Source of the DNA: an uncultured Bacteroidaceae bacterium
GTDB lineage: Bacteria > Bacteroidota > Bacteroidia > Bacteroidales > Bacteroidaceae
Length of the DNA: 64,000 bases
Direction of reading: 5' to 3'
Assembly (NCBI GenBank): GCA_905233285.1
Contig: CAJODY010000004.1
Span: forward strand, 52,167-116,166
The notes beneath the pieces are model-generated. The model had not been told where the DNA came from, searched no databases, and saw only the letters and a list, made by a program, of their open reading frames with translations. Below, in pieces: positions 769 to 56,782 of this stretch. Numbering within the stretch: position 1 is the stretch's first letter; each line of letters starts with the position of its first letter. The translations under genes and the position numbers were made by a program.

Positions 769-985
769 ATCGAAAAGCGCTAAAAACTCTAAAAGATTAT
801 AAGTTGATTATTTCAGATGATTGGTTTTATTTTGTTTGAAGCATCTTAAAAGCGAGCTTTTAGAAGTGCTTCCAATAAAATCAAACCTTTATTCAGAATG
901 TATTCAGAATAAAACAGACCAAGGGTCTTTCATCTGAAAGAATCATTCTTTTCGTGAATTCCGTGTCTTTAGATGTTCTCTCAAA
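769..985. repeat. ~215 bp structured dispersed element, copy A (imperfect TIRs ACATCgAAAA.../...TTTAGATGT, multi-stem)
   Basis: Near identical to 55866-56072; internal stems GAAGCA/TGCTTC, TAAAAGC/GCTTTTA and long-range TTTCAGATGA/TCATCTGAAA. Confidence 0.75.
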
Positions 986-1223
986 GAAAAAATATTTAAT
1001 CCTACAAATAGTGAGGGTCTTAGTGACCCATATAGTGACCCATATTTCGCATGGGTCACTATCTGAATCCCCGATGAATAAAGGGCTGAGGGGCAAAATA
1101 GTGAGTAAGTGAGGGTAAAATGAAAAAATCTTTATTTTTCTGCTATTCTTTTAATTATATAATTTTACACCAATCACACAGATTACTATCTCAGCACACA
1201 TGACCAGAATGAAAGATTAATAC

Positions 1224-1769
1224 TCATGCTATGATTCTATACATGCATAGGGTCGGCTTTGAAGCAGAAGAATCTTCTGTCGGAAAGAAACCGCACTTTT
1301 CATAGAAAGGAACTGCCGTATAAGTCTCAGATTGATATGCACGCACAGTCAAAAGAGGAGAAGTACATTCATTATCAGCTAACAAGTCCAAAATTATCCT
1401 TTCAATAATAAATGAGCCTAAATGTTGGTGTTGTCTTTCTTTTGCAACAGCAAGATATGTTATTTCGATAGAATCAATTAAAGGTAGTCTCCAATATGGA
1501 TTATCCGGGTCTAAAGCTTCTTGTGGAATTGGTTTTATACCCTCTCGCATTTTTGATTTAACATCATCGCCAATGAAAACATTAAACTTGTCTAGCGAAT
1601 ACATTGCCACAACATTACCATTCTCCTTGACAACATACGCCTTACATATTCCCAAATACAGATAGTCCTTAAAATCACCATGAAGAAAACTGTCTATTGC
1701 TTCTACGCCACAATAGAAATCCTTCAACTCATTTGCATCAGATAATTTTTGTATTTCAAGTTGTTTCAT
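1224..1769 (-). CDS. GNAT-family N-acetyltransferase (possible toxin of GNAT-type TA module)
   Basis: 181 aa with GNAT-like YLAVAKERQHQHLGSFIIERI and VPFYEKCGFFPTED; TAATG-type overlap with upstream small ORF. Confidence 0.75.
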   Translation of the reverse strand: MKQLEIQKLSDANELKDFYCGVEAIDSFLHGDFKDYLYLGICKAYVVKENGNVVAMYSLDKFNVFIGDDVKSKMREGIKPIPQEALDPDNPYWRLPLIDSIEITYLAVAKERQHQHLGSFIIERIILDLLADNECTSPLLTVRAYQSETYTAVPFYEKCGFFPTEDSSASKPTLCMYRIIA

Positions 1770-1951
1770 TATTTTTCAGATGATACAACCTGATATTCTT
1801 GTAATATCTTTTTTGATCTTTCAAGAATCCTCTTGTCCGATGCATTCAGCATATGAGTATTAACGCGTACAGCAGCAGAACGCATTGCTTTTGCATAGCG
1901 ACCAGTAACACGTGGTTGTGTCGTATCAACACCTAACATAAGGCTTAACAA
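1769..1951 (-). CDS. Small antitoxin-like protein upstream of GNAT
   Basis: 60 aa ORF whose stop (1769-1771) overlaps the GNAT start (1767-1769); size and position fit a TA antitoxin. Confidence 0.45.
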   Translation of the reverse strand: MLSLMLGVDTTQPRVTGRYAKAMRSAAVRVNTHMLNASDKRILERSKKILQEYQVVSSEK

Positions 1952-2426
1952 TTAAGGTTAAATAATAGAGTTTTAGTATGATTCCTTGTATCTTTATGCA
2001 AAAATACAATTTTTCTTTGATACACCAAAAGAAATTAGGTATAAAACACTATTTTCTCAAAAAATAGGTCTTTTTGCCTACTTTTTCCCACTTTTTACAA
2101 AGCAGGGCTGATCTCTATCCAGAAATCAGCCCTTATCTTGTCCCCTCTGCAGTTTTTCGCATAGGTTTTTACTATTTCATTTGCAATAATTATCGCAAAT
2201 CTATCAATTCTCTTTCATTAATAACACGCGTATTCTTTGTTCCGTTAATCCTTTCCATCATTTCCACTGATTCACCCTCCTACACCTCTCACTCAGCTGC
2301 ATCAACTTCACACAGATGGTCGATGGCACTCCCGTAGAGTCCAGCATCCCCAAGGACATCATAGTAGAGATCTACAAAGTCGTCGGCAACTACCGCCGCC
2401 AGTAACCTCGACCACCAGAAACGCCA

Positions 2427-2467
2427 CATCCCCCGACTCAGCTCACAAAAAGCTGAATCGGGGGATG
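2427..2467. other. Strong hairpin CATCCCCCGAcTCAGCT-cacaaaa-AGCTGAaTCGGGGGATG
   Basis: 17-bp stem with one mismatch; no T-tract adjacent, so not called a terminator. Confidence 0.7.
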
Positions 2468-2781
2468 CCTGTATATATGCCGCTATAATGCGAAGCCGTT
2501 CATCTACGACTCCACATCTTCCATCTTACTTCTTACCTATCACATCTATTCAGCTCTTCCATCACCAATCCTACGGACACACCTTTCCCGTACCCAATGA
2601 ACCCACCAAACCCGAAGTCCATAAGGTAAGCCGGAATCCCAATATAGATTGATGTATAGAGCCTTCTTCTCATCTTGATTTATTTTCTTGTCTTGTTTTT
2701 CTTGTGGTCGACGGTTCTGCCGTCGAGAAGCCACCGTTCCCTGTGTGTCAATGCAGGGGTTATTTCCAATAATTCTGATTC

Positions 2782-4629
2782 CTATATATTATGAATCTCT
2801 GCATCCTTCACATACAGATATTTGTCCTCTCCTACAGGTACCTGATAATATAATTGCCTTATTGTACGATGGTCAATTATCCGCTTTAATGTCACTAGTT
2901 CCAAGTCACTTCCTGCTGTATATTGTTTCAAAAACCTGTCAGCAGCATCCATTACTATTTCACATAAGTAATCTCTCAAATGATAGTCTATGCAAAAATA
3001 GGCACCTGTTTCTATATACTTGTCAAAATCATCCAATCTAACTTCAGCGGCAAAACTGAAATCAAAATAGCTCAGTCTATTGGATGAATCCGAAAAATTC
3101 AAGTCTATAGTAAAACAAGCCTTTGAAGATGCTTTATCCAATAAACATACCATTCTCCTGTAATTAACGGATACCTGATGTAATTCTTCGATCGTTACCG
3201 TTTCCATCGAATGACGTTCATATTTCACATCAGATATTACAGCATCAGATATACCGTCTTTCACGAAAGGAGAAAATGCCTTTTCATTCCGAACTTTTTC
3301 CTCTTTCTCATATCGCATAAACACAGGATCTGTCTTCGGTCTAATCTGAACCTGCGGATCGTTAGGCTTAACCAACCACAGGCTCCATGGGTTTGCCGGT
3401 CCATATTCCGAAGAATCTTCTTCTTGCCATTCTCCTCCATACGGATTTGTAAACTTCTGTATATGGGCCTTTATGGCATCCTCTGTTTTAAAGCGTCCTT
3501 TATCAACGTCCACCTCAGGCAAGATAAAGACAAACAACACATCCAGTATATGAGCGACTGCTGTACAATAAGGCTCCTCACCAGGGCGATTACTCAAGAA
3601 AACGTCAACTGTTGGCTGTTTAACGCTTTCTCTGTCATAAGTAGCCCAGTAAGGCGGCAACTCATTATCCATCACAGATCCATTTATTAAGCCTATCGTT
3701 TCTCCGAAGTGACTTAGCTCTGTAGAAGGCAACAAGTCTATCACCATCTTACAGAGGGATTTGTATATTCCCTGATGTGTGATGATCTCATTTGTTTCTA
3801 ATTGTATCCTAAATGGCTGACTTAAATCCATGTCAACAGGTAGACTCTCCTGTTCTATATAGAGTACGGCCTGATTATTCTCATCCCCGCGTATAACGAA
3901 TCTTTTGCCATCCACCGAAGGTACAGCCCCATCAGTTTTTGTTAGAATGCCACCCATTGCACGTCGGATATCCAAGTAGTGCATCAGATTACTCTCCAGT
4001 TTGGAAAGCTTGTTGTTGCAGGCATCACACTCCTCATTGCAAATGAGTAGTTTGTTTCCCAACCCCTCAGAGATTGCATGAGCAACTTCTTTGAATGCGA
4101 CATCTGGTATCCTACCTCCACAAAAGCGGCAAACACGTTTTACCTTTTCACCCTCGCCTATCACCGTTCTGATTCCATCATATCCGAATGCCAGATGACG
4201 GAATGTTGTCGTTAAAGGTCCCCATGCTAGTAAATAGCGATTATGGATGTCCTGTTCATTCTCTCCTGTTTTCTGGCCATTGATCTTTAATAAAGCCAGT
4301 TGTTTGTTCATCGTTGGTGCATCTTCTGAAACAATTCTAAAAACATCACTATCTTCTAAGGCATTAAGGTATGCAATGAGCTGCCTAATACGTGGATATG
4401 CCGGAGCTATATCAGTTTCTAACATGGTCACAAACCTTGTGGCCTTTTCTTTATCCATTATGAATTTTCCTGTAAAGGCACTACCCTCTTGGCACATATT
4501 CGTCGATGACAATCCTAACAACACCTTGTCAAAGATGTCGTCTGGAAGCTGCGACAAGTCTATTCGTTCATTTTTCCTCCTGAACGAATAGATTAGCATT
4601 GTCTTGGATACAAATTCAAATGGATTCAT
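2782..4629 (-). CDS. HNH endonuclease-like protein (HNH_5-like zinc/HNH core in ~615 aa protein)
   Basis: CRFCGGRIPDVAFKEVAHAISEGLGNKLLICNEECDACNNKLSKLE: CxxC + AHAI + CxxCN arrangement. Confidence 0.65.
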   Translation of the reverse strand: MNPFEFVSKTMLIYSFRRKNERIDLSQLPDDIFDKVLLGLSSTNMCQEGSAFTGKFIMDKEKATRFVTMLETDIAPAYPRIRQLIAYLNALEDSDVFRIVSEDAPTMNKQLALLKINGQKTGENEQDIHNRYLLAWGPLTTTFRHLAFGYDGIRTVIGEGEKVKRVCRFCGGRIPDVAFKEVAHAISEGLGNKLLICNEECDACNNKLSKLESNLMHYLDIRRAMGGILTKTDGAVPSVDGKRFVIRGDENNQAVLYIEQESLPVDMDLSQPFRIQLETNEIITHQGIYKSLCKMVIDLLPSTELSHFGETIGLINGSVMDNELPPYWATYDRESVKQPTVDVFLSNRPGEEPYCTAVAHILDVLFVFILPEVDVDKGRFKTEDAIKAHIQKFTNPYGGEWQEEDSSEYGPANPWSLWLVKPNDPQVQIRPKTDPVFMRYEKEEKVRNEKAFSPFVKDGISDAVISDVKYERHSMETVTIEELHQVSVNYRRMVCLLDKASSKACFTIDLNFSDSSNRLSYFDFSFAAEVRLDDFDKYIETGAYFCIDYHLRDYLCEIVMDAADRFLKQYTAGSDLELVTLKRIIDHRTIRQLYYQVPVGEDKYLYVKDAEIHNI

Positions 4630-4763
4630 ATTATTATCTTAAAAGATATTGATATCCGACAATCTTTAATGTACTCATTATACACATATTCTTTCTTTTC
4701 CCCTCAGCCTATCCCATCTACTTGCTCCGCCTGGTTTGCACCATTCCGAAGGATGTCAAATCA

Positions 4764-7700
4764 TCACATATACAACGGATATACAGCCTTATATGCCGTC
4801 AACAGTTCCTGTCTCAAATGGGGTAATTGTTTATAAGCAGAAACGACAACAGAAAAAGCCGTCTTTTGTTCAAGTTTTCCAAACATCGTTCTCAGCATAG
4901 TGTCTATCGTCAACGTATCTATCGCCGTCATAATTTTCTTCTGCGTGATTCGAGAACAGAAATTTAAGATAACAGGATATAGATACAGACTATAAAAAAG
5001 ATTCTCTTTGCATTTGGAAAACGAAGAGTCTTTATCTAGCACATATAGGTCATATTGTTGCAGAACATATTCCACATCCATTCCTCCACCATAAATATCT
5101 GACTCAATAAAGAAATGTGACACGTCAACATATATATCCTGATGAAAATGTGAAATGATCAGATTCACATCTGCTACTGGAAATCCTTTTCCAAAGACTG
5201 TTGTCATCGCAATATCTTCTGAAACCATCACGCGGTAGCCTCGCATCGTCAATATTGCAGACTGATATTCAATGGTTAGATACCTTGATTTCTCAAAAAT
5301 GGAATCATCGCCCAACTCAACATCAACCATCTCATGAACAGTCTCAACAGTCATTGAGTCTTCAATCCATCTCTTTAAACCAGTCAAACGAGACTTAAAC
5401 CAAGTACTCTCTGCATACTCCGCGACAGCCAATCTATCAACAACAGATTGATAAATACCGGCAGGCAAGGCATATTCTTCTTTAGCGAGAGTGCCGTCTA
5501 TAAGGTGAACTATACCTTGCGGTACAACAAACTTCGCGGTGTAATCTATGCCGAATTTCAAATGGAGCTCGTATAGCAAGATTAACGAGGACAGGTCAAG
5601 CACAAACTCCTGTTCATCAATATTTACCTCTCTCTTTTCATACAATTCTTCAAAATCATTGCTCGGAATATTATAGACCTTGAAATCACCAAAGAGGTGA
5701 TTGTATAGCTCGGCAATATACTCCTCACCAATAAAGAACGTGCTGATTGTCTGCTTGCCTTGTTTATACTCCTCCAAAGCTGCCTTATGAGCTTTTTGCC
5801 ACTCTTCATCATGGCCAGACACTTTTGCCAAACCATCTAAAAGATTTCCTCCCCTTTCGGTTAAATCATCTATCGTAAATGAGAATGCAGATTGAAACTT
5901 GTTCTCTGATATAGCCTTATATATTTCCTCCAGCAACTGATAATACTTATTGTTGATAGAAATCACTTCGTAGGTTTCATCGCGGTCCATTCTGTCTTTC
6001 AGGATGGCTGTCTCACCCACTTGCTTTCCTATCATGCAATCTATACGTTGGCCTTTTACTATGATGTCCGACCGTTCTTCACCATTATGCTTATAATGAA
6101 CATACAAGCCATCTTCAACAATATCATATTCTTTCCTTATGATAGGAGCCGTCTTAGGATTCATGCAAATACTATGGAAGAGCAGTGAAACCTGTTCGTT
6201 AGGATCATTGTTACGAATATACGTATAGAGGAACTCTACAGATTCCTCTATCATATCCGACAACAACAATACATTGAACACTTCTGTCGCAGCATCTGGC
6301 GTATATCTGTAATCCCCCAATTTATCCGCCAACTCTTTAACTTTATCAAAATGTCCATTCTGATACTGCATTGTCAAATAGCAGGTATAATAGGACACAT
6401 TCTTGGAATCTAGCCTATACAATGCTTCTGCAATGCTCAACATCCTCTGGAAATCCTCTTCCTTTCGAGCAAACACATACTCATCTTTAAGCCATAAAGG
6501 ATTCTCGGCATATCCTCCTTCTCTTACCTTACGCAGATAAGCATTGAGACGGGAGTATGATTTAGATTTTTTCAATAAGTCAACATAAATATGACTACCG
6601 AAGTCAACATACCCATCCCGTAAACAACTTTCACTTAAATCCAATGCCTCTTTGGTTAAACCTGCATCATAGAGTGCGATAGCCATAAATGGTCTTAACC
6701 CTAATGCAGCATCAGATTGATGATCTAACAAGTATTGCGTATCTACTTGAACTTTGCAGAAAGAATTGCAGACTTCTTTATATACATTAGAATCCACTTC
6801 GTCTGCTATAAGCACCTTATATACATTCTCCTTCAAAGATTCAGTATGGTCTCTGAATGCCATCAGAAGGAATATCAGCATAGTGCCAGGCATCACCACT
6901 TTCTTCTCTACAAGTTGAAGCAATGTTTCTCTGGCAAAAATTTCATCTGCTGTCACCACTGCCAAATAGAAGCGTATATTATAGATACTGGCATCATTAA
7001 CAATTCTAGAACCTTTCAGGTAGTTCTTTGCCTCTTCAAATTGTTTTTCTTTTGATAAAAACAACACATACGCCAATTGCTTGACGGGGAGGAATTGAGC
7101 AGAGGCCTTACATTGTTTAAGTTTTTCCAAAAGCTCAGTATCCTTTCGCATTTTGTATGCTGTGATAGTGTTAAACAACGTCACATCAACCGAAAGTTCT
7201 CCTATTTCCGTTTTCTCCGACAACTCTATAAAGCGAGTCGAATAATCATAAAGTTCTTTGCAAAATGGGCCAACTGGCGTGTCACCAGCGAAAGCATCAG
7301 CATTCCACTCACGTATATATCTATTCGTCAGAACGGACAAATTAAATATCCATATAGGAATATTCTCAAATTCCAAAGTTACTGGCCGGGCTACCTTATA
7401 TTTGAATATATCTACACAAAGACTCGTCTCCTCACGACGCATCATGCAGGCGTTGGCCAAAATAACCGTATTGGCTTTAATATCTTCAGGTAATTTGGAA
7501 TAGGTCTCTTCAATATTATCTGCTAATACCAGACTTGGTATCCATGCCCAGATATTATTTCTGTCATGTTCCCTTAGTCCATTAGCCATTCTTATTGCTT
7601 CATCACTCTTTTTCTCTAGGCATAAACAATAGAGTTTACCTGAAATAATGTCTGGGTCGTACCGTTCTGCTCCTATCATCTCCCTATAAGCCCTATCATA

Positions 7701-8102
7701 TTCTGCGAGACAGAATTCTTTGCTTACATAGCGGGAACAACATCCCAACGCATAATCCACTATAGAAAGTGTATATTGATCACTCGTTGGAATATTGAGG
7801 CGTAACTTAAGCAACACGTCATGGGCCGTGCGTATATGCAATGATGAGATAAGACCATTCAGTTGCTGGGCTATTTCTCTTATCGTTGCATTTGAATTTG
7901 ACTTTGACAGGCTAATCAAGTAGTCCATCTTTGCGTCAAGCGTATTCACGGCATCAAGCACAGGTTCTTTCTTTTTACCACTAAACAGTCTCTTGAGGCC
8001 AGCTTTTATGCCGTCCGTTACAAAGGACTCTACAACATCTTTAACGTATTCTGGTGCCTTTGCTATCAAATACGCTTTTATGGCTAACCAAATAGTAATC
8101 AT
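4764..8102 (-). CDS. Large TPR-type helical-repeat protein with GreA/B-C-like segment and C-terminal PIN-like domain; start re-assigned to 8102
   Basis: Helical repeats throughout; IVKGQRIDCMIGKQVGETAILKDRMDRDETYEVISINNKY resembles GreA/B C-terminal domain; FVLDLSSLILLYELHLKFGIDYTAKFVVPQGIVHLI resembles PIN N-terminus. TAAAAGGTATATG places an AAAGG SD and ATG (8100-8102) just after the upstream HNH stop (8110-8112); the track start at 8141 lies inside that gene. Confidence 0.6.
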   Translation of the reverse strand: MITIWLAIKAYLIAKAPEYVKDVVESFVTDGIKAGLKRLFSGKKKEPVLDAVNTLDAKMDYLISLSKSNSNATIREIAQQLNGLISSLHIRTAHDVLLKLRLNIPTSDQYTLSIVDYALGCCSRYVSKEFCLAEYDRAYREMIGAERYDPDIISGKLYCLCLEKKSDEAIRMANGLREHDRNNIWAWIPSLVLADNIEETYSKLPEDIKANTVILANACMMRREETSLCVDIFKYKVARPVTLEFENIPIWIFNLSVLTNRYIREWNADAFAGDTPVGPFCKELYDYSTRFIELSEKTEIGELSVDVTLFNTITAYKMRKDTELLEKLKQCKASAQFLPVKQLAYVLFLSKEKQFEEAKNYLKGSRIVNDASIYNIRFYLAVVTADEIFARETLLQLVEKKVVMPGTMLIFLLMAFRDHTESLKENVYKVLIADEVDSNVYKEVCNSFCKVQVDTQYLLDHQSDAALGLRPFMAIALYDAGLTKEALDLSESCLRDGYVDFGSHIYVDLLKKSKSYSRLNAYLRKVREGGYAENPLWLKDEYVFARKEEDFQRMLSIAEALYRLDSKNVSYYTCYLTMQYQNGHFDKVKELADKLGDYRYTPDAATEVFNVLLLSDMIEESVEFLYTYIRNNDPNEQVSLLFHSICMNPKTAPIIRKEYDIVEDGLYVHYKHNGEERSDIIVKGQRIDCMIGKQVGETAILKDRMDRDETYEVISINNKYYQLLEEIYKAISENKFQSAFSFTIDDLTERGGNLLDGLAKVSGHDEEWQKAHKAALEEYKQGKQTISTFFIGEEYIAELYNHLFGDFKVYNIPSNDFEELYEKREVNIDEQEFVLDLSSLILLYELHLKFGIDYTAKFVVPQGIVHLIDGTLAKEEYALPAGIYQSVVDRLAVAEYAESTWFKSRLTGLKRWIEDSMTVETVHEMVDVELGDDSIFEKSRYLTIEYQSAILTMRGYRVMVSEDIAMTTVFGKGFPVADVNLIISHFHQDIYVDVSHFFIESDIYGGGMDVEYVLQQYDLYVLDKDSSFSKCKENLFYSLYLYPVILNFCSRITQKKIMTAIDTLTIDTMLRTMFGKLEQKTAFSVVVSAYKQLPHLRQELLTAYKAVYPLYM

Positions 8103-8109
8103 ATACCTT

Positions 8110-11405: not shown

Positions 11406-11419
11406 ACCTTATATACGAG

Positions 11420-11650: not shown

Positions 11651-11680
11651 TACATCTTAATTCTTACATCCTAGATAAAT

Positions 11681-11970
11681 CCCCTTCTCTCTTGTTTTTA
11701 GATTGTATAAACAATCGTGTTTTTGCCATTGATGAGATGAGATTTCCTGAAAGGAATTGAAGATATTTGAGAAAAACTGCGAGTAAGCGAGCGTAGAATG
11801 ATGCTTGTATCAATTATGCCGAGCGAAAGCAGGTTCGACGAAGTCAACGCTTGTCTGGGTGCTTGTACACAAGCAGACTTTACTAATATCGTTAATACTC
11901 TGCTAAGAGTACAATCCCATCAATGGGGTTATTGAGGTTTTTTGTTTATTTAGTGTCTTTCGATGTTCAG
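11681..11970. repeat. Structured element family 2, copy 1 (flanks RelE-type TA)
   Basis: Shares ends ccccttctctcttgtttttagattgt and ggggttattgaggttttttgtttatttagNgtctttcgatgttca with 12624-12844; inner stem GCCATTGATG/CATCAATGG. Confidence 0.7.
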
Positions 11971-12623: not shown

Positions 12624-12844
12624 CCCCTTCTCTCTTGTTTTTAGATTGTGATAACAATCGTGTTTTTTGCCATAACAGTATTAAAAAGACTCTGAAAGAG
12701 GATGAGATATAAGATAGGTATTTTTATCTGGGTGCTGGCATTCTAGGAAAAATAGATAGCTTATATCGTTAGTGCTGCAAAGCACTTTAATACTGATATG
12801 GGGTTATTGAGGTTTTTTGTTTATTTAGAGTCTTTCGATGTTCA
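12624..12844. repeat. Structured element family 2, copy 2 (same orientation, other side of TA pair)
   Basis: Shared ends with 11681-11970; inner closing stem replaced by CAGTATTAAAAAG/CTTTAATACTG. Confidence 0.7.
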
Positions 12845-14483: not shown

Positions 14484-15287
14484 TTACTTTCTCCCTCTCA
14501 ACCTATTAATCACCCCGTATGTCACGCCAGTCAGTCTGGACAGCTGACGCATTCCGGCACCCCTCTCCAAACAACAGACGATTATCTCATTACGCTTCTC
14601 CTTGTCCATTTCCTGCACCTTGATAGAGTCCATAATGCCATAACTCTCCAGCAGGTATTGACGTATTTCGCGGTCACCCACACTAATCTTTACGTCCTCA
14701 TCAAGGTCTAGACATTGTACATCGTCATCCAGAGGTGCCTCAACCAGTTCCTTCAGCTCGTCAAGACTCATCCGCTTCAGTATCGCATTGGTGGCGCAAA
14801 GTCCCAGTGCCACAGGCACCTCACCTGTATATTCTTTCCAGCTACTCCAGTCATAATCCCCCACCTTGCTCACCATCCCAGCCTTCGTCGGATTCTGATG
14901 GATGTACCTCAGTAACGTCACAAAGTAAGCCATATCGTTCACCGGTTCGCTCTTAAAGCGGTCTTGAAACACGTGGCCAGAGCGAGAGTACTTCTGATTG
15001 TAGTACATGGCATACATGACAGCCAGATGCTTGATGGTACTGCCTATATCCTCCTGGTTCACACGCAACAACAAGTGCACATGGTTCGACATCAGACAAT
15101 AGGCATAGAACGTGCAGAGAGGCGGCAGACGGTTACCCAAATCGTCGTATTGCTCAAGCATCAGTTGCAAGCATCTGAGCATACGCATATAATCCTCCGC
15201 ATCCTCAAAGATATCCTGCCTATTGATGCCACGAAGCATCACATGGTAGATACCCGTTCCCGATTCCTTCCTCGCCTGTCGTGGCAT
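14484..15287 (-). mobile_element. REP-associated tyrosine transposase (RAYT, Y1_Tnp family)
   Basis: MPRQARKESGTGIYHVMLRGINRQDIFED...FYAYCLMSNHVHLLLR...; HVHLL HUH-type motif. Confidence 0.92.
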
Positions 15288-18979: not shown

Positions 18980-19403
18980 GACCTTAACGTTAACTCTTTC
19001 TAATGGAAGATATAAGACCGTTTAGTTGGCGTTCAATACTATGAATCCTATCCATTAACTTTTGGTAGTTAACGTCAAGGTTATCGTCAAGGTTGTCAAA
19101 ATACCCCACGTTCTTGGCAATCTTTAACTGTGTTTCAACCTCAAATGCTGAACCTAAAGCGAAGTCCAAGAAATGGGCAAAGTCTGCATCAGAAGAACGT
19201 GCTGCATCTTCAGCAATGTTTGAACTGATGGAAACAGCTGCCCTTTGTAGTTGGTCACATAGCCCCTTCTTCTCAAACCAAGGCATTTGACCTGTTACCT
19301 CATATACATAGGTGGCATAATCCACCGCCTCATTCCACACAGGATAATCTCTAAAATTTCTTGCGCCAGCCATAGTCAAGGTTATCGTCAAGGTCAAGGT
19401 TTC
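17821..19403. repeat. Cluster of GGTTAACGATAAGGTT-type short repeats, several inside coding sequence
   Basis: 17821-17852, 18601-18636, 18786-18812, 18979-18996, 19068-19097, 19372-19403; encode NDDLNLN / VDLNLNDDL / LDDNLDVN. Confidence 0.75.
18990..19373 (-). CDS. Four helix bundle protein (23S rRNA intervening-sequence protein family); start re-assigned to 19373 (MAGARNF)
   Basis: FRDYPVWNEAVDYATYVYEVTG...GLCDQLQRAAVSISSNIAEDAARSSDADFAHFLDFALGSAFEVETQL. Confidence 0.85.
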   Translation of the reverse strand: MAGARNFRDYPVWNEAVDYATYVYEVTGQMPWFEKKGLCDQLQRAAVSISSNIAEDAARSSDADFAHFLDFALGSAFEVETQLKIAKNVGYFDNLDDNLDVNYQKLMDRIHSIERQLNGLISSIRKS

Positions 19404-43713: not shown

Positions 43714-44053
43714 CTAATACCGAACTATGCGTACGGGTTTTATCTTTTGGGCGTTGAAGTTCACAAGCAGTCCTAACTTATAGCCAGTAATGGCTAAATA
43801 GTTAATGACCTGTGCTTCGTGAACTGGAAGAAGTTCATCGACTGCTTTTAGTTCTACAACTATCTTGTTGTAACATACAAAGTCGGCAATGTACTTCTGT
43901 TCGAGCTCTTCACCTTTATACATAATGGTGAAGCTCTTTTCACGCTCAAAAGGAATACCCGACTTTTTCCAAAAGTCCAGGGCCAAGCTCTTTATGAACC
44001 TCATAGATAGCTCCTGTTATCTTGTATGACTCCTCAGGGTACAAAAGTGACAT
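43714..44053 (-). pseudogene. GxxExxY family gene disrupted by small internal frameshifting deletion
   Basis: From ATG at 44053: MSLLYPEESYKITGAIYEVHKELGPGLLEKV then frame lost; 43714-44004 continues SGIPFEREKSFTIMYKGEELEQKYIADF...; compared with intact 56115-56561 the YQEALEKELELQ segment is missing. Confidence 0.8.
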
Positions 44054-45286: not shown

Positions 45287-45327
45287 TCAAATTTCGCTGA
45301 TTACGCAGATTGAGCAGATTTCGCAGA

Positions 45328-45705
45328 TTACAACCCATTAACCCGTCGGTGAATAGATGATGCTATATCGTCTGTTTCAAAGTTCACCAAAATACCGAGT
45401 TTTAGCCCAGTCATTTTCAGGTAGGTTTGTAACTGCTTGTAGAACACTTCGTTCACATGCTGCACTGCTTTCAATTCTACGATTACCTTCTTTTCTACTA
45501 ATATGTCTAGCCTATAAGCCTTGGGAATGGTGATACCACCATAAACAATAGGCAAGTACACCTGATTCTCCACCAAAAGACCTTCCTTTTCAAGTTCTAT
45601 CTTTAGTGCCGTCTCATAAGCACTTTCCAATAGCCCAGGCCCAAGGTTGTTGTACACATTGAATATGGCACCACGTATCTTATATGAAATTTCGTTTTCT
45701 GTCAT
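45328..45705 (-). CDS. GxxExxY family protein
   Basis: IRGAIFNVYNNLGPGLLESAYETALKIELEKEGLLVENQVYLPIVYGG...VIVELKAVQHV. Confidence 0.9.
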   Translation of the reverse strand: MTENEISYKIRGAIFNVYNNLGPGLLESAYETALKIELEKEGLLVENQVYLPIVYGGITIPKAYRLDILVEKKVIVELKAVQHVNEVFYKQLQTYLKMTGLKLGILVNFETDDIASSIHRRVNGL

Positions 45706-45766
45706 AAATCTGCGCTATCTGCCATATCAGCGTTATCTGCCATATCAGCGTTATCTGCGAGAAGTT

Positions 45767-46927: not shown

Positions 46928-46991
46928 TATTTTTGTATTTTTATCTTATTTCAAACTTCCCTTAACAAAAGCATCTGGCGAACCAATCAGG

Positions 46992-47624: not shown

Positions 47625-47687
47625 ATCGATAACGGCATCGAGCGGTGTTCTCGTCTTCTTTTCGTTGTCGAAGCCATAAAATGATTA

Positions 47688-47981
47688 TTATTGTTTTACT
47701 ATCATCTTTAAAAGATGTTTCATCATCTCATTAGACAATTCTTGGTCAATCTTCATCTTTTGATTCTGGAGAGCTATCAGCAATTGATATATCTGGTTCT
47801 TATAATTGTATTCATCAACTGTGAGATATCCACGTCTCTGCCATACCATAATAATGTAATTATAGGTAGCACACAACTGCTGCCACATCCCTGCAAGTTG
47901 CATCTCCTTCCCCACCTTGTCTAATATAGACCAGCGGGAATAAGCCTCATCAAACTGCTCAAAAATATTATTTGCCATCAA
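47688..47981 (-). CDS. Small hypothetical protein
   Basis: 97 aa ORF on operon strand. Confidence 0.45.
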   Translation of the reverse strand: MMANNIFEQFDEAYSRWSILDKVGKEMQLAGMWQQLCATYNYIIMVWQRRGYLTVDEYNYKNQIYQLLIALQNQKMKIDQELSNEMMKHLLKMIVKQ

Positions 47982-48078
47982 GAATTAACTTTGTTGACTT
48001 TTCTCACGCTCGGCAATACTCAAACAAGTTTGGAACTGCGCTCGCTTACTCGAAAAGTTAGAGAATTAGAGAAATTTT

Positions 48079-48705: not shown

Positions 48706-48707
48706 GT

Positions 48708-50039
48708 TTACATCAGGTTGTAAAGGAAGGCAAAGTCATCATTCAACTTCTCGGTTTCTGAATCGAAAAAGTTGTCGCCAATCAGTTTGGTTGTATTATC
48801 CTTGATAGACTGGCAATACACGTCACGTGACGGGTCTAAAGAATAGGCCTCGAAACGGTCGGCATTGATACCCAAGAATTCTTGGTTAGCTGTATTCAAC
48901 GTTTCTGACAGGAAATGTTGCTCCAGTTCCTCACGCTTTGACGGATGTGCCTTCAAGACCTTGGAATAATAGAGCATATTATTGAACGTGGAAAGCACAT
49001 AAGGGCTGTGAGTGGTGACAATCATCTGAGAGTGACAGTGGTTAGCAATGAGTACCATTAACTCTATCAGCAGCTTCTGTGCCTCGGGATATATATGGGC
49101 CTCTGGCTCTTCGATAATACGAGTGGTATCAATATTGTTACAGAGGATAAATATCATATCTTGGATGATTCGGATAGACTCCTGCTGACCAGAAGATGCA
49201 TTACCAAGGGATACGGAATTCTTATCGTCAACTTGAATGCTCTCGGTGCCATTCTCGTTCTTGTAGTTGCCCTTCAATATCATCTTGGCAATCTTCAGCA
49301 CCAGTTGTCCAAAAGGATTATCCAACTTCTGTCGGTAGCCGTTTGAGAAGAAATCAACAAGTCGCTTACTGTGCAGCATAAAGGAACGGATGATTTCCTC
49401 CTCGTTGCCACCTATGTGCTTCTGCTTGTCGCTCAACTGCCCAAAGAATAGCATCTGGAACTGCTCGGAGAAAGATACTGTGATATTTCTTCCTGCTGGG
49501 ATATATAGCCCAATCTTAACATCTTCAAAGGTGTCACAAGATTCTTTCAATACCCGTCCATAGAACTCGGTCCTAATTTTCATCTCATTGGCTGGATCCT
49601 GTGCAATTAACTCCTTGGATTGCTTCTGGAAAGCAAGTAATTTCTCTGTAGAGGCCGTCAGCGAGTCGTGCATGGACTGGCTAAATCCGACCATCACCTT
49701 ATCGTCCTTAACACTGAAATGCAAACTCTTATTTTTCTCAGAGGACAAAAGGAATTGTGTTCGGAAATTAGGATCAGGTATCTCGTTATAGGAGAAATAC
49801 TCCTGAAACTTGCTTATGATTCGGATATTGAAGTTGACCATAAAAACATCACCCGTCATCTCTGGAGCATCAACACTGAACATATCTATATAGAACTGCT
49901 GAATAAACTTGAAAAAGTATATCAGCTTGGCTATAGTACTCTTACCCGATGCCTGAGGGCCAATGAGCAACAGGAAGTCCTTGACCTCAATCTCAGCATG
50001 GGTAATCTGCTTGAAATTATCAACAATTAGTTTTTGCAT
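48708..50039 (-). CDS. AAA family ATPase (OLD/AAA_15-like)
   Basis: DFLLLIGPQASGKSTIAKLIYFFK; SLGNASSGQQESIRI; TRIIEEPEAHIYPEAQKLLIEL; MIVTTHSPYVLSTFN. Confidence 0.88.
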   Translation of the reverse strand: MQKLIVDNFKQITHAEIEVKDFLLLIGPQASGKSTIAKLIYFFKFIQQFYIDMFSVDAPEMTGDVFMVNFNIRIISKFQEYFSYNEIPDPNFRTQFLLSSEKNKSLHFSVKDDKVMVGFSQSMHDSLTASTEKLLAFQKQSKELIAQDPANEMKIRTEFYGRVLKESCDTFEDVKIGLYIPAGRNITVSFSEQFQMLFFGQLSDKQKHIGGNEEEIIRSFMLHSKRLVDFFSNGYRQKLDNPFGQLVLKIAKMILKGNYKNENGTESIQVDDKNSVSLGNASSGQQESIRIIQDMIFILCNNIDTTRIIEEPEAHIYPEAQKLLIELMVLIANHCHSQMIVTTHSPYVLSTFNNMLYYSKVLKAHPSKREELEQHFLSETLNTANQEFLGINADRFEAYSLDPSRDVYCQSIKDNTTKLIGDNFFDSETEKLNDDFAFLYNLM

Positions 50040-50047
50040 AACTATAT

Positions 50048-50767
50048 TTAAATGTTATTACATACTTTCTTGACAATATCGATATCATAAAGATGAATAA
50101 AATCTTCTAGTCTATCATCAATGTCCTCTATTTGGTCAATATAAATGGAAAGTGCCAATACTAAAGTTATGGTGAAAGCATCATAGAGTTCATGCGAAGA
50201 ATTTAGCTGCGGGCCAAAATCTGTAGTATTTTCCTCAATGTGCAACAATGAGTAACTTTGGCCTACCCCATCTGAGTTCGGGTGCACGAACTCACACAGG
50301 TAGCTGTAATACTGCTGAAAGCCGGGATATGATTCTTCTGCTCGCTTTACATGCTTGCCTATCCGCTCAGCCTTTAATCTTTCGTCATCTGGTTCTATGT
50401 ACGGGTCATCTTTCCTATAATTGTTTCCAAACAGCAACCGCATTAACTGGTTATCATCGTCTTTAACCACTTCTTTTCTCTCAACGACATCTTGAACTAC
50501 TTCTGCAAGTTTAATTGTTATTGCTGCATTTTCCATTGCACTTCTGACAAGCATCAATGCAGGATGTGTTAAGTCAGACTCAAACAATAGAATCGCAGCT
50601 TCTGCACACTCCTTCATCCGCCAGTTCATCGCATTGACAATTGTCATCACTTTGTATGGCAACTTTGACAGATTTGAATACTCCTTGTTCTGCATTGATG
50701 CCACACAATGTTTTGAGAGTTCTGCAATAAGTTCTTTGGCTTTTACTATGTTTTTATGCTCAACCAT
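50048..50767 (-). CDS. DUF5677/HEPN-like protein; start likely 50767 (MVEHKN)
   Basis: LTHPALMLVRSAMENAAITIKL ... YPGFQQYYSYLCEFVHPNSDG; 8 nt upstream of ATPase. Confidence 0.5.
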   Translation of the reverse strand: MVEHKNIVKAKELIAELSKHCVASMQNKEYSNLSKLPYKVMTIVNAMNWRMKECAEAAILLFESDLTHPALMLVRSAMENAAITIKLAEVVQDVVERKEVVKDDDNQLMRLLFGNNYRKDDPYIEPDDERLKAERIGKHVKRAEESYPGFQQYYSYLCEFVHPNSDGVGQSYSLLHIEENTTDFGPQLNSSHELYDAFTITLVLALSIYIDQIEDIDDRLEDFIHLYDIDIVKKVCNNI

Positions 50768-50974
50768 TCTTTTTTGAGTTGTTGCGGCTTCGCCTCTTAA
50801 AACAACCCGCTCTCTTCGTAAGATGTGTGCGACACCGCTTTGCAGAATCATAATGTGGCAAATGCCTCTTTGAGATTCTTATGACTGGAGGCAAGCTCCT
50901 GTAAGATTACCCTGTAACAAGCGTATCCTTCTAATAATCATTCTTTTATTTTGAACTCTATTATTATGTAATCA

Positions 50975-51613
50975 CTATGCATTATCTGCAAAACTGACAC
51001 CAAACAAAGACAAAATAGAAGCTATACTACCAATAAAACCAACTATTCCTCCTACGTATGCAATGATAGTAGATATCTTACCATTTACTTTGAATTGTTT
51101 GAAACCTATCATCTGCATAAGGTATGTCAAAAGTTGAATCAGTACCTCTATTCCTCTAAAAGGCCAAAATATTACAGGTAAAAGCAATTGAGCAATTAAG
51201 TGCCATTTACGGCTTTTACGCTTTTCGTCCCATATCAGATAGTTTGCATATGCACGGCGATATAGATTTTCAAATGTTTGAAAAGAAAAATAATTGTTAT
51301 ATCTTATTTTTGCTCCTATTTCTGCAACAGGCGAGTCATAAATATCCTCATCTAAGATACGAGACACCTGCTCGGATTTCCTTATGAAAAAAACTTCTTC
51401 AACACCATTATTCTGATTCTTTTGGAATTTATTCTTGAATATAGAAGCATTCGTAAAGTAAGACTCCAATATCTTTGGTTCTGAATACCATACTACATAT
51501 ATAAGATATAGTAATCTAAAAAGACCCAAAACACTTATAACACACAGTATCCATAATCCAACTTGGGAATAAGAGGATATACTTTCGTACCATGTATTTA
51601 TTGAATCGAACAT
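50975..51613 (-). CDS. Membrane protein, unknown
   Basis: 212 aa with N- and C-terminal TM segments. Confidence 0.5.
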   Translation of the reverse strand: MFDSINTWYESISSYSQVGLWILCVISVLGLFRLLYLIYVVWYSEPKILESYFTNASIFKNKFQKNQNNGVEEVFFIRKSEQVSRILDEDIYDSPVAEIGAKIRYNNYFSFQTFENLYRRAYANYLIWDEKRKSRKWHLIAQLLLPVIFWPFRGIEVLIQLLTYLMQMIGFKQFKVNGKISTIIAYVGGIVGFIGSIASILSLFGVSFADNA

Positions 51614-51680
51614 TTTAAATAATGTATGTTAGAATATACGGAGTTTTGTTGAATAAAATCCTATATAAATTATTTTCGTA

Positions 51681-52664
51681 TTAGAAATTAAGAAATTCCA
51701 CACGAGTCATTATTTGAGGCATAGAAGGATAGAATCTTGCCACGATATTTTCATATACCTGAATTACCTGATTAGAGTATTCCTCATCTCTAGGGTTGTA
51801 TAATGAAAAAATCTCACTGTAGAAATCAAACAATAAAAGACTTTCCTCGTCATGGTGGTTTATATTCTGTAAAACACTCATAACATCAGCCTTTATCTTC
51901 TCACAAGCCTTAATCACTGATTCCTCATCTGATAATGGTTTTGATGATTTCACCTGCATAATGCCGTATGTATGGGGCTTCTTGGAGAAATGAAATAACC
52001 TTCGCTCCATGAATCTTGCGATTGCAGGTCGATTGAAATCTTCATATACCATTATAGAATATACAACTGCCTTGTAAAAGTCAGACGAGAACTGATTATC
52101 AATGATATTTCCGAATTTCTTCTTGAACGTGTTTACTTTGTTATATGTATATTTCTTAATACGTCTATCCGCCCCTTCACGCGAGAAGTTCATCTTATTA
52201 AAGATGCTGTACAAGAACAAGATAATAAGTATCCAAAGTTGCTCAAGCAGAGCCTTTGGCGAAGGCAATACGGATTCTACTTTATCAATGATACTATTGA
52301 CCCAGAACGCTAATGCAATGGAACTAACCCAATACAGAATCTGAACTTTCCAATTCAATAATGGCAACCGGCCACGAACTGTTATATATAAAAAGCGGTA
52401 TATCCAGTAATATATTACAATCAAATAAAGGTTTTTACATAGAAGGTCCAATCCTAAATTCTGAAATAATACTGCCAAGAGTATTATATAAACTATTGGA
52501 GCTAAGACCTTAAAAAGATAATTGAATAATGGCGCCGTATCGTCTTGTAAGCTAACAGACATTTGAACATATCCAAAATCCAAAGGCTTGGACTTTGCAC
52601 CAATCCAATTGACTATGTAAAACAGTACAATCGCAAGCGCAATTCTTATAAGTTGTAGTTCCAT
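51681..52664 (-). CDS. Membrane protein with C-terminal transglycosylase/lysozyme-like motif
   Basis: Several TM helices then KAVVYSIMVYEDFNRPAIARFMERRLFHFSKKPHTYGIMQV. Confidence 0.5.
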   Translation of the reverse strand: MELQLIRIALAIVLFYIVNWIGAKSKPLDFGYVQMSVSLQDDTAPLFNYLFKVLAPIVYIILLAVLFQNLGLDLLCKNLYLIVIYYWIYRFLYITVRGRLPLLNWKVQILYWVSSIALAFWVNSIIDKVESVLPSPKALLEQLWILIILFLYSIFNKMNFSREGADRRIKKYTYNKVNTFKKKFGNIIDNQFSSDFYKAVVYSIMVYEDFNRPAIARFMERRLFHFSKKPHTYGIMQVKSSKPLSDEESVIKACEKIKADVMSVLQNINHHDEESLLLFDFYSEIFSLYNPRDEEYSNQVIQVYENIVARFYPSMPQIMTRVEFLNF

Positions 52665-52914
52665 TAATATAGTTTATATCGTATGCTCAAAAGTCTAAGC
52701 AACAATTCTTTTATTTTTTGATATCAATTCCCAAACTCAATCTAATGCTAGAGAGAAATACAAATTTACTTATCTCCTTTATCTTTACGGACTCTCTTTA
52801 CTGTGTGCTTGAGTTTGCCTATGAAGAAGTTAATCTCCAGCGTCGTCTTCTCTGCCCGCTCACCCATCGATGCGAGCACTGTGCTCGGTTTGGCGTCGAT
52901 TGAGGAGAATCTCA

Positions 52915-54396
52915 TTAGTTCTCAATCTCCTTGCGAATGATAGAATATGTTCGACCTGGATCATGCAAGCCTCCATTAGCACAAACAATTCCCATCTTCA
53001 ACATTTTTTTTATATGTGAACCAATTGTAACAAATGATTTCCTTGTATGCGCAGCTAATGTACTTGTGCCTACTGCTTTATTACTTGCTAAGATTGCCAG
53101 TATTTCATGATCTAACTTGTCTAACTGTACCCATATATCCTCTCCAATAAATTCCAATGCTCGTCCTTTCCTTCGGAGATTACGCATTACAATATTATTT
53201 TTAAGCACTAATCGAACAGATTGCCCTGGCTCACTGTAAACAGGATCATCAAGAAAGAATTTTTCCATATCCGAGTAAATACGCTTTACTCCCTCATTCA
53301 GTTCTCTTACCCATCCAAAATCCGTTAATATTCGTGCAATTCGTGGATTTCTTGAGTATCTTGTTTCTTTAATATTATCCAATGTCACTATACTAGGCAG
53401 TTTGCCTGGACTTTCTATCTCTAAACGGTCATCATACATGCTGACAAGTATATAACGCCCCGCTAAAGCATACTCTCTATGGGTAACGGCGTTTACAATT
53501 CCCTCTAACCAAGCAAATTCAGGATATTCAGGAACTATTTGGAATTTTCCTGTTGTTGGATTTAGAGCAGTAAATTCACGTAGCTGATTTGATATAAAAT
53601 CTTTTGCTTCTTGAATAATTCCCAATATAGGCCTTTCTATATTATAATCTCGAGTGATATTGATATCCGAACCTGTTCTTGCCTTTGTTCCATCATAGCG
53701 TATGAAACGAATACGACAATTGGGATAGAATTGGATGATATTCTTAGCAAAGAGCAAGACTGCCGCATTGGTAAGTTTGGGCACTCCATTCTGCTTCCTT
53801 ATAAATCCACGAGCACTCAGTATTTGCTCATAAGTCTTATTGCCAGCATTAAGGATATCTTTATAGGTATCAAGTAGGTCTGTGTCTAAATCATCTATCG
53901 TGGCATCTGAATTACACTCATCTTCAAAATGACGAACATTCTTAACATATTCCAGATTACGCAAATCATCCCCCTTAAGTTCTTTCGTTCTATCTGCTAC
54001 ACGAAGATAAGTAGAGCCATTAACCGTTCTGATTACCTGTTCATGACTTGGATCTATATGAAGAAGTAACAGTCTATCTGCCTTTCCTTTTTTATTTGAT
54101 ACTGAAAGAAACTCTTCGTGATATTGCGGCATTGGAATACAGGTATCTTTGGGAGCAGAGACTAAATCATTTACTTGGTCAGGAGTTAAAGTACTTAAAC
54201 CTTCGATTGTTTTCGTTTTGTCATCAATGCCAATTACAATTGTTCCACCTTCCGCATTAGCAAATGCAGAAATAATAGGAGCCAAGTCTCCGGGCTTTAT
54301 TCTCGAAGACTTTCTATCAAATATTTTATTCTCAGGCTCATTAACGATATAATTAAGAGTCAGAGACGGTTGATATGATGATTGTATTGTATTCAT
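52915..54396 (-). CDS. AlbA_2 (Schlafen-like) domain protein with RecG-type ATP-binding C-terminus
   Basis: FDRKSSRIKPGDLAPIISAFANAEGGTIVIGIDDKTKTIEG; GIVNAVTHREYALAGRYILVSMYDDRLEIESPGKLP. Confidence 0.88.
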   Translation of the reverse strand: MNTIQSSYQPSLTLNYIVNEPENKIFDRKSSRIKPGDLAPIISAFANAEGGTIVIGIDDKTKTIEGLSTLTPDQVNDLVSAPKDTCIPMPQYHEEFLSVSNKKGKADRLLLLHIDPSHEQVIRTVNGSTYLRVADRTKELKGDDLRNLEYVKNVRHFEDECNSDATIDDLDTDLLDTYKDILNAGNKTYEQILSARGFIRKQNGVPKLTNAAVLLFAKNIIQFYPNCRIRFIRYDGTKARTGSDINITRDYNIERPILGIIQEAKDFISNQLREFTALNPTTGKFQIVPEYPEFAWLEGIVNAVTHREYALAGRYILVSMYDDRLEIESPGKLPSIVTLDNIKETRYSRNPRIARILTDFGWVRELNEGVKRIYSDMEKFFLDDPVYSEPGQSVRLVLKNNIVMRNLRRKGRALEFIGEDIWVQLDKLDHEILAILASNKAVGTSTLAAHTRKSFVTIGSHIKKMLKMGIVCANGGLHDPGRTYSIIRKEIEN

Positions 54397-54400
54397 TTTA

Positions 54401-54476
54401 ACTCCAAAGATACTCTAAAACTACTCCAAAGATACTCTAAAACTACTCCAAAGATACTCTAAAACTACTCCAAAGG
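54401..54476. repeat. 22-bp tandem repeat, ~3.5 copies (actccaaagatactctaaaact)
   Basis: Perfect repeats at 54401-54422, 54423-54444, 54445-54466 plus partial; immediately 5' of 54396 start codon. Confidence 0.95.
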
Positions 54477-54652
54477 AAGACCAAGCCAACGAAAACTGTT
54501 TTTTCCAAAACGAAGACGAGAACTAGTTCCGTCACTTCTAAGGTAACTGATATGAATCTGCAACACAGAAAGAACTCCATCAACCGTGCGATAAAGCAAC
54601 TGGGGCAGGTCCCGCCACCACACACAAGGTTGGTTTCTGTTCTGCCATCGCT

Positions 54653-54826
54653 TTACAATTTATTTGAGGTGCGAATCAACTCAAAACGACGATGCAACTC
54701 AGCCTGGAACTTAGCAGTAGAGCGCCTTGCCGACTCTGCCACCTGCTCCATGATTGCATGCAGCATGTCGTCGGTCGGCTCCTGCAGAGACGACAATCTA
54801 TATGATGTAAGTTCTTGTTGTGACAT
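54653..54826 (-). CDS. Small conserved-looking protein (57 aa; not in ORF track)
   Basis: Manual translation MSQQELTSYRLSSLQEPTDDMLHAIMEQVAESARRSTAKFQAELHRRFELIRTSNKL*. Confidence 0.5.
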   Translation of the reverse strand: MSQQELTSYRLSSLQEPTDDMLHAIMEQVAESARRSTAKFQAELHRRFELIRTSNKL

Positions 54827-54944
54827 AAGTATATTTATTTAGGCGCTAGGGAATTTATTTTTAAAGTTGAGCGATTAGCGGGGAGCGGTTAGTGGTTAGT
54901 GGTTAGCGTAACTGACTTTCAACTTTCAACTTTCAACTGTGAAG

Positions 54945-55760
54945 TTATTTCAAGACCATATATAATAATGAGCCGAGGGAGACGGTGATGCTGGCACCGC
55001 GGACCCAGAGGCGGGTGGTAGTGCCGACTTGGGATTCCTGGACCATTGCCATGTTGGGCTCTACATATACTATGTCGCGCTGCTGGAGGTAGTAGTACGG
55101 AGAGTTGAGGATGTTGGCATCGCGCATGTCGAGTTCGTGGATTGCGAAGGTGCCATCGCTCTGTTCACGGAGGACTTTGACGTTTTCACGTTTGCCGTAG
55201 ATGGTCATGTCGCCTGCCATGGCGAGGGCTTCAAGGACATTAATCTTGGGACGTGAGAGGGTGAAGGTATTGGGGTTTTTGACTTCCCCCATGACGGATA
55301 TCTCAAAATTCTCGATATAGGTATTGACTACGCAATCGGCATTTTCATGAAGATAAGGAAGTATCTGTTTCCGGATATGTTCGTTCGCCTGTTCGATGGT
55401 AAGACCAGCTATATGAACTGTACCGAGGACAGGGAATTCGATATTTCCATCGTTATCTACAAGGTAGGAATGGAATTTTTGTCCTCCAGAAGAGAATGTT
55501 TTTGTAGTGACACTTAAAACACTAGGATCAACCATATTGAACTGGAAGATTGACTCCTGATCTGTGCCAGAGAAGACATAGATGTGTAGATTGTCTTTGG
55601 GTTTGATGGTTATGTCGTATAAGTTGGCACCTTTGGTTCCGTCGAACTCGGCAGAGTTCTGGAAGTATGGGACGGACTTGTAGCTGGAACAGGAGCTGAT
55701 GACAAGTATGAATAGGATGTATTTTAGTAGTTTGGTAATCATATTTCTATTTTTGAACAC
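54945..55760 (-). CDS. Polysaccharide export outer-membrane lipoprotein (Wza-like)
   Basis: Lipobox-like LVISSCSSYK; FPVLGTVHIAGLTIEQANEHIRKQI; GEVKNPNTFTLSRPKINVLEALAMAGDMTIYGKRENVKVLRE. Confidence 0.92.
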   Translation of the reverse strand: MFKNRNMITKLLKYILFILVISSCSSYKSVPYFQNSAEFDGTKGANLYDITIKPKDNLHIYVFSGTDQESIFQFNMVDPSVLSVTTKTFSSGGQKFHSYLVDNDGNIEFPVLGTVHIAGLTIEQANEHIRKQILPYLHENADCVVNTYIENFEISVMGEVKNPNTFTLSRPKINVLEALAMAGDMTIYGKRENVKVLREQSDGTFAIHELDMRDANILNSPYYYLQQRDIVYVEPNMAMVQESQVGTTTRLWVRGASITVSLGSLLYMVLK

Positions 55761-55865
55761 TATTTATTTACTCACATCTAAAAACTCGGAAAACTCTAAA
55801 AAAACTCTATTATATTTTAACATCGAAAGGCTCTAAAAACACTAAATTTTCTTATTATATTTTTA

Positions 55866-56072
55866 CATCGAAAAACACTAAAAACACTAAAATATTATAA
55901 GTTGATTATTTCAGATGATTAGTTTTATTTTGTTTGAAGCATCTTAAAAGCGAGCTTTTAGAAGTGCTTCCAATAAAATCAAACCTTTATTCAGAATGCA
56001 TTCAGAATAAAACAGACCAAAGGTCTTTCATCTGAAAGAATCATTTTTTCGTATATTTCGCGTAGTTAGATG
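55866..56072. repeat. Structured dispersed element family 1, copy B
   Basis: Near-identical to 769-985, same orientation. Confidence 0.8.
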
Positions 56073-56114
56073 TTCTGCTATTAAGTTTTTCGTTAATTCC
56101 GCGTCTTTAGATGT

Positions 56115-56561
56115 TCAGTATCTGACGATGCGTTCAGGTTTTATCTTTGTCTCATTGAAATTCACTAAAAGACCAAGCTGGTAGCCTGTAATAGTTAAGT
56201 AATTTATCACCTGCGCTTTGTGAACCGGAAGAAGTTCATCGACTGCTTTTAGTTCTATGACTATTTTGTCGTAACACACAAAGTCTGCAATGTATTTCTG
56301 TTCTAGTTCCTTACCCTTGTACATAATGGCGAAGTATTTTTCACGCTCAAACGGAATACCTTGAAGTTCCAGCTCTTTTTCGAGGGCTTCTTGGTAAACC
56401 TTTTCCATGAGACCAGGGCCAAGTTCTTTATGAACTTCGTAAATGGCACCTATAATCTTGTATGATTCCTCAGGGTATAGCAAAGTGTTCTCTTTCATAT
56501 CACATCGCAAACCTTTTAATTTAACATCTATTGTTATTACATCGAAAAACTCTAAAAGCAC
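56115..56561 (-). CDS. GxxExxY family protein (intact)
   Basis: IIGAIYEVHKELGPGLMEKVYQEALEKELELQGIPFEREKYFAIMYKG...VIELKAVDELL. Confidence 0.9.
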   Translation of the reverse strand: MLLEFFDVITIDVKLKGLRCDMKENTLLYPEESYKIIGAIYEVHKELGPGLMEKVYQEALEKELELQGIPFEREKYFAIMYKGKELEQKYIADFVCYDKIVIELKAVDELLPVHKAQVINYLTITGYQLGLLVNFNETKIKPERIVRY

Positions 56562-56583
56562 TAAAATTACTTTTACTTTTTTT

Positions 56584-56782
56584 TTACATCGAAAAACACT
56601 AAAAACACTAAAACTTATTATTGATGATTAATCTTTGATAAGATTACTATGCTTGTGAGCATAGGTTTAATTTTGTTTGATGAATCTTGAAAATTCGTTT
56701 TCAGAAGTTCATCCAATAAAATCAAACTTCATCATCAATAATAAAATCTTTTCGTTTATTTAGGGTATTTAGATGTTTGTAA
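56584..56782. repeat. Structured dispersed element family 1, copy C (diverged, covarying)
   Basis: Shared core TTTTGTTTGA..ATCTT...AGAAGT..CCAATAAAATCAAAC with compensatory stem changes. Confidence 0.7.

Follow-up and report, generated by a model that had tools for sequence, protein, structure and literature searches.

Cloverleaf repeats and GxxExxY genes bounded by the same kind of 9-bp iterated ends: a candidate family of mobile elements in Bacteroidaceae

Three copies (A, B and C) of a structured non-coding element lie in a 64,000-nucleotide stretch of DNA from an uncultured Bacteroidaceae bacterium (contig CAJODY010000004.1, positions 52,167 to 116,166), the whole of which we call the window. 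The elements are organised as four-way junctions, or cloverleaves, with covarying stems, and have the same type of inverted, iterated ends as genes encoding GxxExxY proteins, a small and widespread family of unknown function. It is somewhat more probable than not that the three copies are non-coding units of a family of mobile elements, partnered by coding units that carry the GxxExxY genes, with the GxxExxY protein acting on the ends or junctions. Overall, the elements appear to be gene-spreading elements of a kind not yet described. Their anatomy is well supported, and the sequences would be explained most economically by a mechanism in which a Cas4-like nuclease works on the iterated ends and on DNA junctions. 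The units of the family found in the window are as follows.

767-976, + strand: copy A, a solo cloverleaf with single left (L) and right (R) ends; closing stem P1 at 811-820/930-939, arm P2 at 821-889, both hairpins 3' of P2
43692-44081, - strand: simple unit consisting of an L end, a decayed GxxExxY gene (43738-44038, frame broken) and an R end, with no cloverleaves
45328-45705, - strand: third GxxExxY gene, with another end core (CAGAT/CTGAT) and 9-bp-period ends at about 45288-45332 and 45706-45763
55774-55800, + strand: outermost left 9-bp-iterated end of a composite unit
55820-55846, + strand: second left 9-bp-iterated end, outside copy B
55865-56073, + strand: copy B, a cloverleaf nested in a second end pair; P2 at 55919-55987, hairpins 3' of P2
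56085-56114, - strand: right end outside copy B, directly adjoining the stop codon of GxxExxY
56115-56498, - strand: GxxExxY gene (127 amino acids; profile match to TIGR04256 / PF13366), between B and C and co-directional with both neighbouring genes
56539-56565, + strand: left 9-bp-iterated end outside copy C, lying upstream of the start of GxxExxY
56586-56776, + strand: copy C, a cloverleaf nested in a second end pair; P2 at 56662-56730, hairpins 5' of P2
56790-56819, - strand: right end outside copy C
56832-56861, - strand: outermost right end of the composite unit, partner of the end at 55774

A preliminary description of this DNA had reported three copies, A and B nearly identical and in the same orientation and C diverged. 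All three are on the + strand, within a few bases of the positions first given; A and B are 93% identical over 207 nucleotides (E 5e-85), and the match of copy C is 71% identical over 119 nucleotides (E 6e-15). That list of units was incomplete, however: the GxxExxY gene, the decayed GxxExxY gene and several further structured inserts also carry these ends. The four-way junction, the 9-bp iteration of the ends and the nuclease partner had all been overlooked. From 55774 to 56861 the ends form a balanced nest, L( L( L-B-R )R gene L( L-C-R )R )R.

In true copies, the junction is built from the closing stem P1, the long arm P2, which contains mismatches, and a pair of short hairpins. Roughly half of the copies have these hairpins 5' of P2, the others 3' of it. 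We compared 16 to 33 relatives (16 copies for the P2 alignment, 33 for pair counts). Thirteen of the 27 P2 pairs are changed on both sides, and both-sided compensatory changes occupy 42 cells of the alignment, versus 14.7 after shuffling (0 of 500) and no more than 10 with the partners slid. An independent RNAalifold prediction contains 21 pairs of the same arm. The P1 core, GATGA/TCATC, is fixed, the next three pairs outward are freely exchanged, and nearly all stem changes are full Watson-Crick swaps. The stems originally named as compensatory are all present in the copies, and the proposal of selection on a folded molecule is strongly supported by the significant covariation in the larger alignment, which had been set beforehand as its test; the homologs are not vertically inherited untranslated regions (UTRs) of one gene. 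Two details were mistaken: CCAATAAAATCAAAC, thought to be unpaired, pairs with GTTTTATTTTGTTTG across conserved T-C mismatches, and ATCTT/AGAAGT, thought to be unpaired or joining, forms an internal loop that is partly paired and includes two conserved T-G pairs.

The cloverleaf interior at position 5194 of locus L141 is inverted relative to its own L and R ends when compared with copy A. Together with the hairpins swapping sides of P2, this suggests that the interior inverts between the P1 arms. Variants with two oppositely oriented P2 arms about 25 bp apart also occur (L161 3506-3666, L156 552-712 and L165 146-307).

The choice of base pairs suggests that the element more likely works as folded DNA than as RNA. 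With three conserved wobble positions set aside, the P2 stems of the 33 copies contain 703 Watson-Crick pairs, 14 G-T and 19 A-C, and the mispairs in P1 are 6 G-T and 5 A-C. An RNA under selection would be expected to tolerate G-U far better than A-C. Moreover, the pair that closes a 2-nucleotide loop covaries, being C-G in 18 and T-A in 10 of the 33 copies; hairpin loops in RNA need at least three bases, whereas two-base loops are common in DNA. Of the two substrates suggested earlier, RNA or a cruciform of single-stranded DNA, the data thus lean toward folded DNA and do not favour RNA. The lack of a G-U preference combined with 2-nucleotide loops gives a simple sequence-based test that can be applied to other palindromic repeats.

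The terminal sequences ACATCgAAAA / TTTAGATGT that were first taken as imperfect inverted repeats are present well above chance: the left end ACATCGAAAAACACTAAAAACACTAAAA and the right end TTTTCGTTTATTCCGTGTCTTTAGATGT are parts of a motif with 32 matches in the window, compared with 4.2 expected from dinucleotide shuffles (maximum 9). In each end a 5-bp core occurs three times in direct orientation, at intervals of exactly 9 bp; the opposite end has the inverted arrangement. Scanned for periodicity, 64 of 104 cloverleaf flanks have period-9 triplets, and at most 8 of 104 have triplets at any other period from 6 to 13; among solo copies alone the period-9 count is 33 of 61 flanks. GxxExxY gene flanks behave in the same way (38 of 84, versus 0.8 when shuffled and at most 4 at other periods). 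Within one cloverleaf copy, L and R cores agree at 0.71 (shuffled, 0.25), and the cores on the two sides of a GxxExxY gene at 0.93 (shuffled, 0.20), although the core itself differs by locus (CTAAA, CGAAT, CGGAT, CAGAT). Variable positions inside the cores show no compensation between L and R, and the ends therefore look like putative protein-binding iterons rather than a stem. On the GxxExxY tree, cores cluster (16 changes versus 21.1 shuffled, 0 of 200), with near-copies contributing to this result. Period-9 ends also lie beside GxxExxY genes of Bacteroides finegoldii, Persicobacter and Gemmatirosa; other GxxExxY records showed no such ends or a different spacing.

A link between cloverleaves and GxxExxY genes emerged from searches in which the gene played no part. 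An initial scan for the core pattern, covering 84,980 species genomes, detected it in Prevotellaceae and other Bacteroidales; exact-pattern matches in SAR86, Planctomycetota, Bacillus, Rickettsiales and one Bacteroidetes locus (L088) were rejected as chance. Within the family, search model R1 has matches in 21 of 399 genomes, which belong to 7 genera, and an order-wide search beyond the family gave no additional genomes at E 1e-6. In the loci examined, 19 of the 58 R1 places have a GxxExxY gene no more than 400 bp away; since a 3-Mb genome of the genus has roughly 0 to 6 such genes, well under one such proximity is expected. Five of the 58 (L154, L158, L159, L162 and L166) were dropped from flank and pairing counts. 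These hits are hairpins next to tRNA genes; the ones in L154, L158 and L166 are weak R1 matches in related genomes, very similar to one another and directly 3' of the tRNA genes. The complete arrangement of cloverleaf, gene and cloverleaf occurs at five loci (the window, L092, L093, L097 and L155).

The GxxExxY protein of the window (56115-56498) scores 155 bits against TIGR04256 (cut-off 35), making it a clear member of the family, and it also matches PF13366 (PDDEXK_3). Its PD-(D/E)XK motif is intact (D72, E82-x-K84 and Q96xxxY100), with D72, E82, K84, Q96 and Y100 invariant in eight relatives. A sequence search found no relative with a solved structure, but the AlphaFold2 model (mean confidence, pLDDT, of 92) has as its best PDB matches by Foldseek Cas4 SSO0001 (E 4e-5), LHK-Exo and Cas4 Pcal_0546. 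Judging from this model, GxxExxY is a predicted minimal PD-(D/E)XK nuclease of the Cas4/lambda-exonuclease branch, whose fold and QxxxY motif it possesses, and it presumably cleaves DNA. Unlike Cas4, it has only 127 amino acids and no conserved iron-sulfur (Fe-S) cysteine cluster, and its genes occur in operons and not beside cas genes in annotated records. For this protein family, the ends and cloverleaves supply a concrete candidate substrate.

GxxExxY genes sit inside operons, as in fabD-GxxExxY-fabG of Sphingomonas. In 31 of 38 loci they run in the same direction as both neighbours, and in 3 they are fully antisense. The gap between korA and korB provides filled and empty sites at one place: it is 16 to 18 bp in most congeners, is occupied by a GxxExxY unit in others, and once (L229) by a four-helix-bundle gene. 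The mobility that had been proposed for the cloverleaves, as units resembling miniature inverted-repeat transposable elements (MITEs), gains indirect support from their patchy presence in 7 genera, from nesting, from ends shared with GxxExxY units and from the empty korA-korB sites of these sister units, and we infer that the cloverleaf units also transpose. A search based on the membrane-protein gene next to the window units turned up no empty site for a cloverleaf unit, since no relative is syntenic over the loci on either side of these units. The copies are real, but the family is clustered locally rather than dispersed through the genome, because 21 of the 24 end matches with at most one mismatch in the 2.55-Mb draft fall in a single 62-kb polysaccharide region (C4:48254-110031).

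These features could be combined as follows. Both types of unit are bounded by the inverted ends, with three direct repeats of the 5-bp core, and the non-coding unit would carry between them a palindromic cassette that can be extruded from DNA as a four-way junction of P1, P2 and two hairpins. GxxExxY would be translated through read-through of the host operon, would recognise the iterated ends, the folded cassette or both as DNA (single-stranded or cruciform), and would then nick or process it. Host replication and repair would place a copy elsewhere, preferably nearby or inside related units, which would produce nested end pairs. Such a system would explain why GxxExxY genes turn up in unrelated operons. 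More tentatively, it may constitute a new class of mobile element, in which a minimal Cas4-like nuclease replaces the transposase or recombinase, recognises both a four-way junction in DNA and 9-bp iterated ends whose core co-evolves with it, and disperses the two types of unit, coding and cloverleaf, among bacterial operons. If this mechanism is true, a transposase-free element with a Cas4-type nuclease would be added to the known mobile elements.

Several observations weigh against this proposal. Besides the missing empty site, no target duplication is visible at the copies. Among the 53 accepted cloverleaf copies, 31 have no GxxExxY gene within 1.5 kb in the sequence examined; two genomes (G008 and G010), both incomplete drafts, have cloverleaves and no GxxExxY match; and many GxxExxY genes have no cloverleaf. 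The clustering of cores on the GxxExxY tree may come partly from close copies inherited together. The genome's only IS200-like (Y1) transposase falls within the same 62-kb region of ends. Finally, we know of no transposase-like chemistry for a nuclease of the GxxExxY type.

The main alternative is a role at the RNA level, similar to that of intervening sequences (IVSs) or structured UTRs: ends and stems would guide RNase III or stabilise the mRNA of an operon, and there would be no role as DNA. We regard this as unlikely. The co-orientation of GxxExxY units in operons agrees with it, and the 23S rRNA intervening-sequence protein family (S23p; TIGR02436, PF05635) of the same genus also has iterated inverted repeats on its flanks; Coxiella IVSs have tandem heptamers upstream of S23p (PMC4990558). 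These IVSs resemble the GxxExxY units in having a small open reading frame (ORF) inside inverted iterated repeats, in occupying transcribed loci and in being able to use the korA-korB site, but they encode another protein, their flank repeats mostly have period 7 and not 9, and no cloverleaf was seen in them. Against an RNA role stand the base-pair choices and the covarying closing pair of the 2-nucleotide loop, the presence of cloverleaves upstream of GxxExxY in both orientations, the location of copy A between convergent genes, and the differing L and R end cores, which do not compensate each other.

A second possibility, to which we give little credence, is that the Y1 (HUH) transposase encoded at 14484-15287 mobilises the palindromes in the manner of repetitive extragenic palindromic (REP) sequences and their REP-associated tyrosine transposases (RAYTs), with GxxExxY as cargo or coincidence. 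This gene is the only PF01797 match in the draft genome, it lies inside the 62-kb cluster of ends, and its product resembles RAYTs (NF047646, 61 bits, which is under the 80-bit cut-off). RAYT-type genes can have long terminal inverted repeats (TIRs) on both sides (PMC3733652). However, the transposase gene is not flanked by any of the family's ends. The 35 cloverleaf loci (313 kb) contain no RAYT homologue, the one match covering just 21 C-terminal residues, and a GxxExxY gene is present in 13 of them. The elements also do not have the GTAG/CGTC tag of REPs, so the REP comparison offered in the preliminary description fails as a statement of membership. As an analogy it retains some value. REP/RAYT systems, REPtrons and TIRtrons likewise have imperfect palindromic, dispersed non-coding elements that flank a small nuclease-like gene on both sides, and recognition of folded DNA is probable in both cases. 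In the present family, however, the partner is a PD-(D/E)XK nuclease and not an HUH/Y1 transposase, the units measure about 190-210 bp and contain a four-way junction, compared with the 20-40 bp hairpin of REPs, and the ends, ACATC...GATGT or others, are iterated at 9 bp.

It is still less probable that the elements are ordinary MITEs of an unseen DDE transposase, whose ends would be the TIRs of a conventional insertion sequence (IS) and whose captured passenger would be GxxExxY. Short inverted ends, a non-coding interior, dispersed copies and nested insertions would suit this model. But the ends are shared with GxxExxY units, and no IS transposase was seen between them at the sites read, which were some of the end-bearing sites in the genome; the copies are without visible target duplications, as already mentioned; and the end core varies by lineage in step with GxxExxY, which is not predicted for a passenger. 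A toxin-antitoxin or defence pair in which the cloverleaf is antitoxin or decoy is scarcely credible: small two-part loci with a nuclease gene beside structured elements recall such systems, but the cloverleaves have no fixed orientation with respect to the gene, either of the two is often found without the other, and the 9-bp inverted ends would be left unexplained.

Integron attC sites are similar in being imperfect palindromes with conserved mismatches, in preserving structure over sequence and in flanking a small gene on both sides, but the elements described here form a four-way cloverleaf and have their own inverted iterated ends. No integron cassette array was noticed in the window, although an integrase gene was not searched for. 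Rfam searches gave no match for the window or the surroundings of the element and nothing relevant in six related loci, and a search of a plasmid collection gave no DNA match. Our searches of a literature library found no paper on these repeats or on GxxExxY function, and no description of 9-bp iterated inverted ends, operon insertion or cloverleaf companions for the GxxExxY family.

Other structured inserts in the window have similar ends.

11718-11967, - strand: second-class structured element with the same end type; its interior fold is less regular
12663-12842, - strand: second-class cloverleaf, a four-way junction of unrelated sequence with the same end type
57572-57866, strand not assigned: structured insert with ACATCT...AGATGT ends; its interior fold is not cleanly four-way

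Further second-class elements, unrelated in sequence but with the same ends, are present in the draft genome (G000) at C4:48263, C4:51346 and C101:435-914. Most members of this class (12663-12842, those at 48 kb and 51 kb of C4, and that of C101) have the same kind of four-way junction. The second-class cloverleaf elements have the tail GGGGTTATTAAGGTTTTTTG, and a similar element flanks GxxExxY in L046.

Genes for four-helix-bundle proteins (S23p, the 23S rRNA intervening-sequence family) are found in the window at 59237-59602 and 18990-19397, and in loci L179-L208. In the genus they often lie between inverted iterated repeats, with period 7 in 16 of 45 flanks and period 9 in 5 of 45, and on these counts we rejected the idea of a common 9-bp period for all small inserted genes. 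The period-7 flanks match the heptamers of the Coxiella IVSs.

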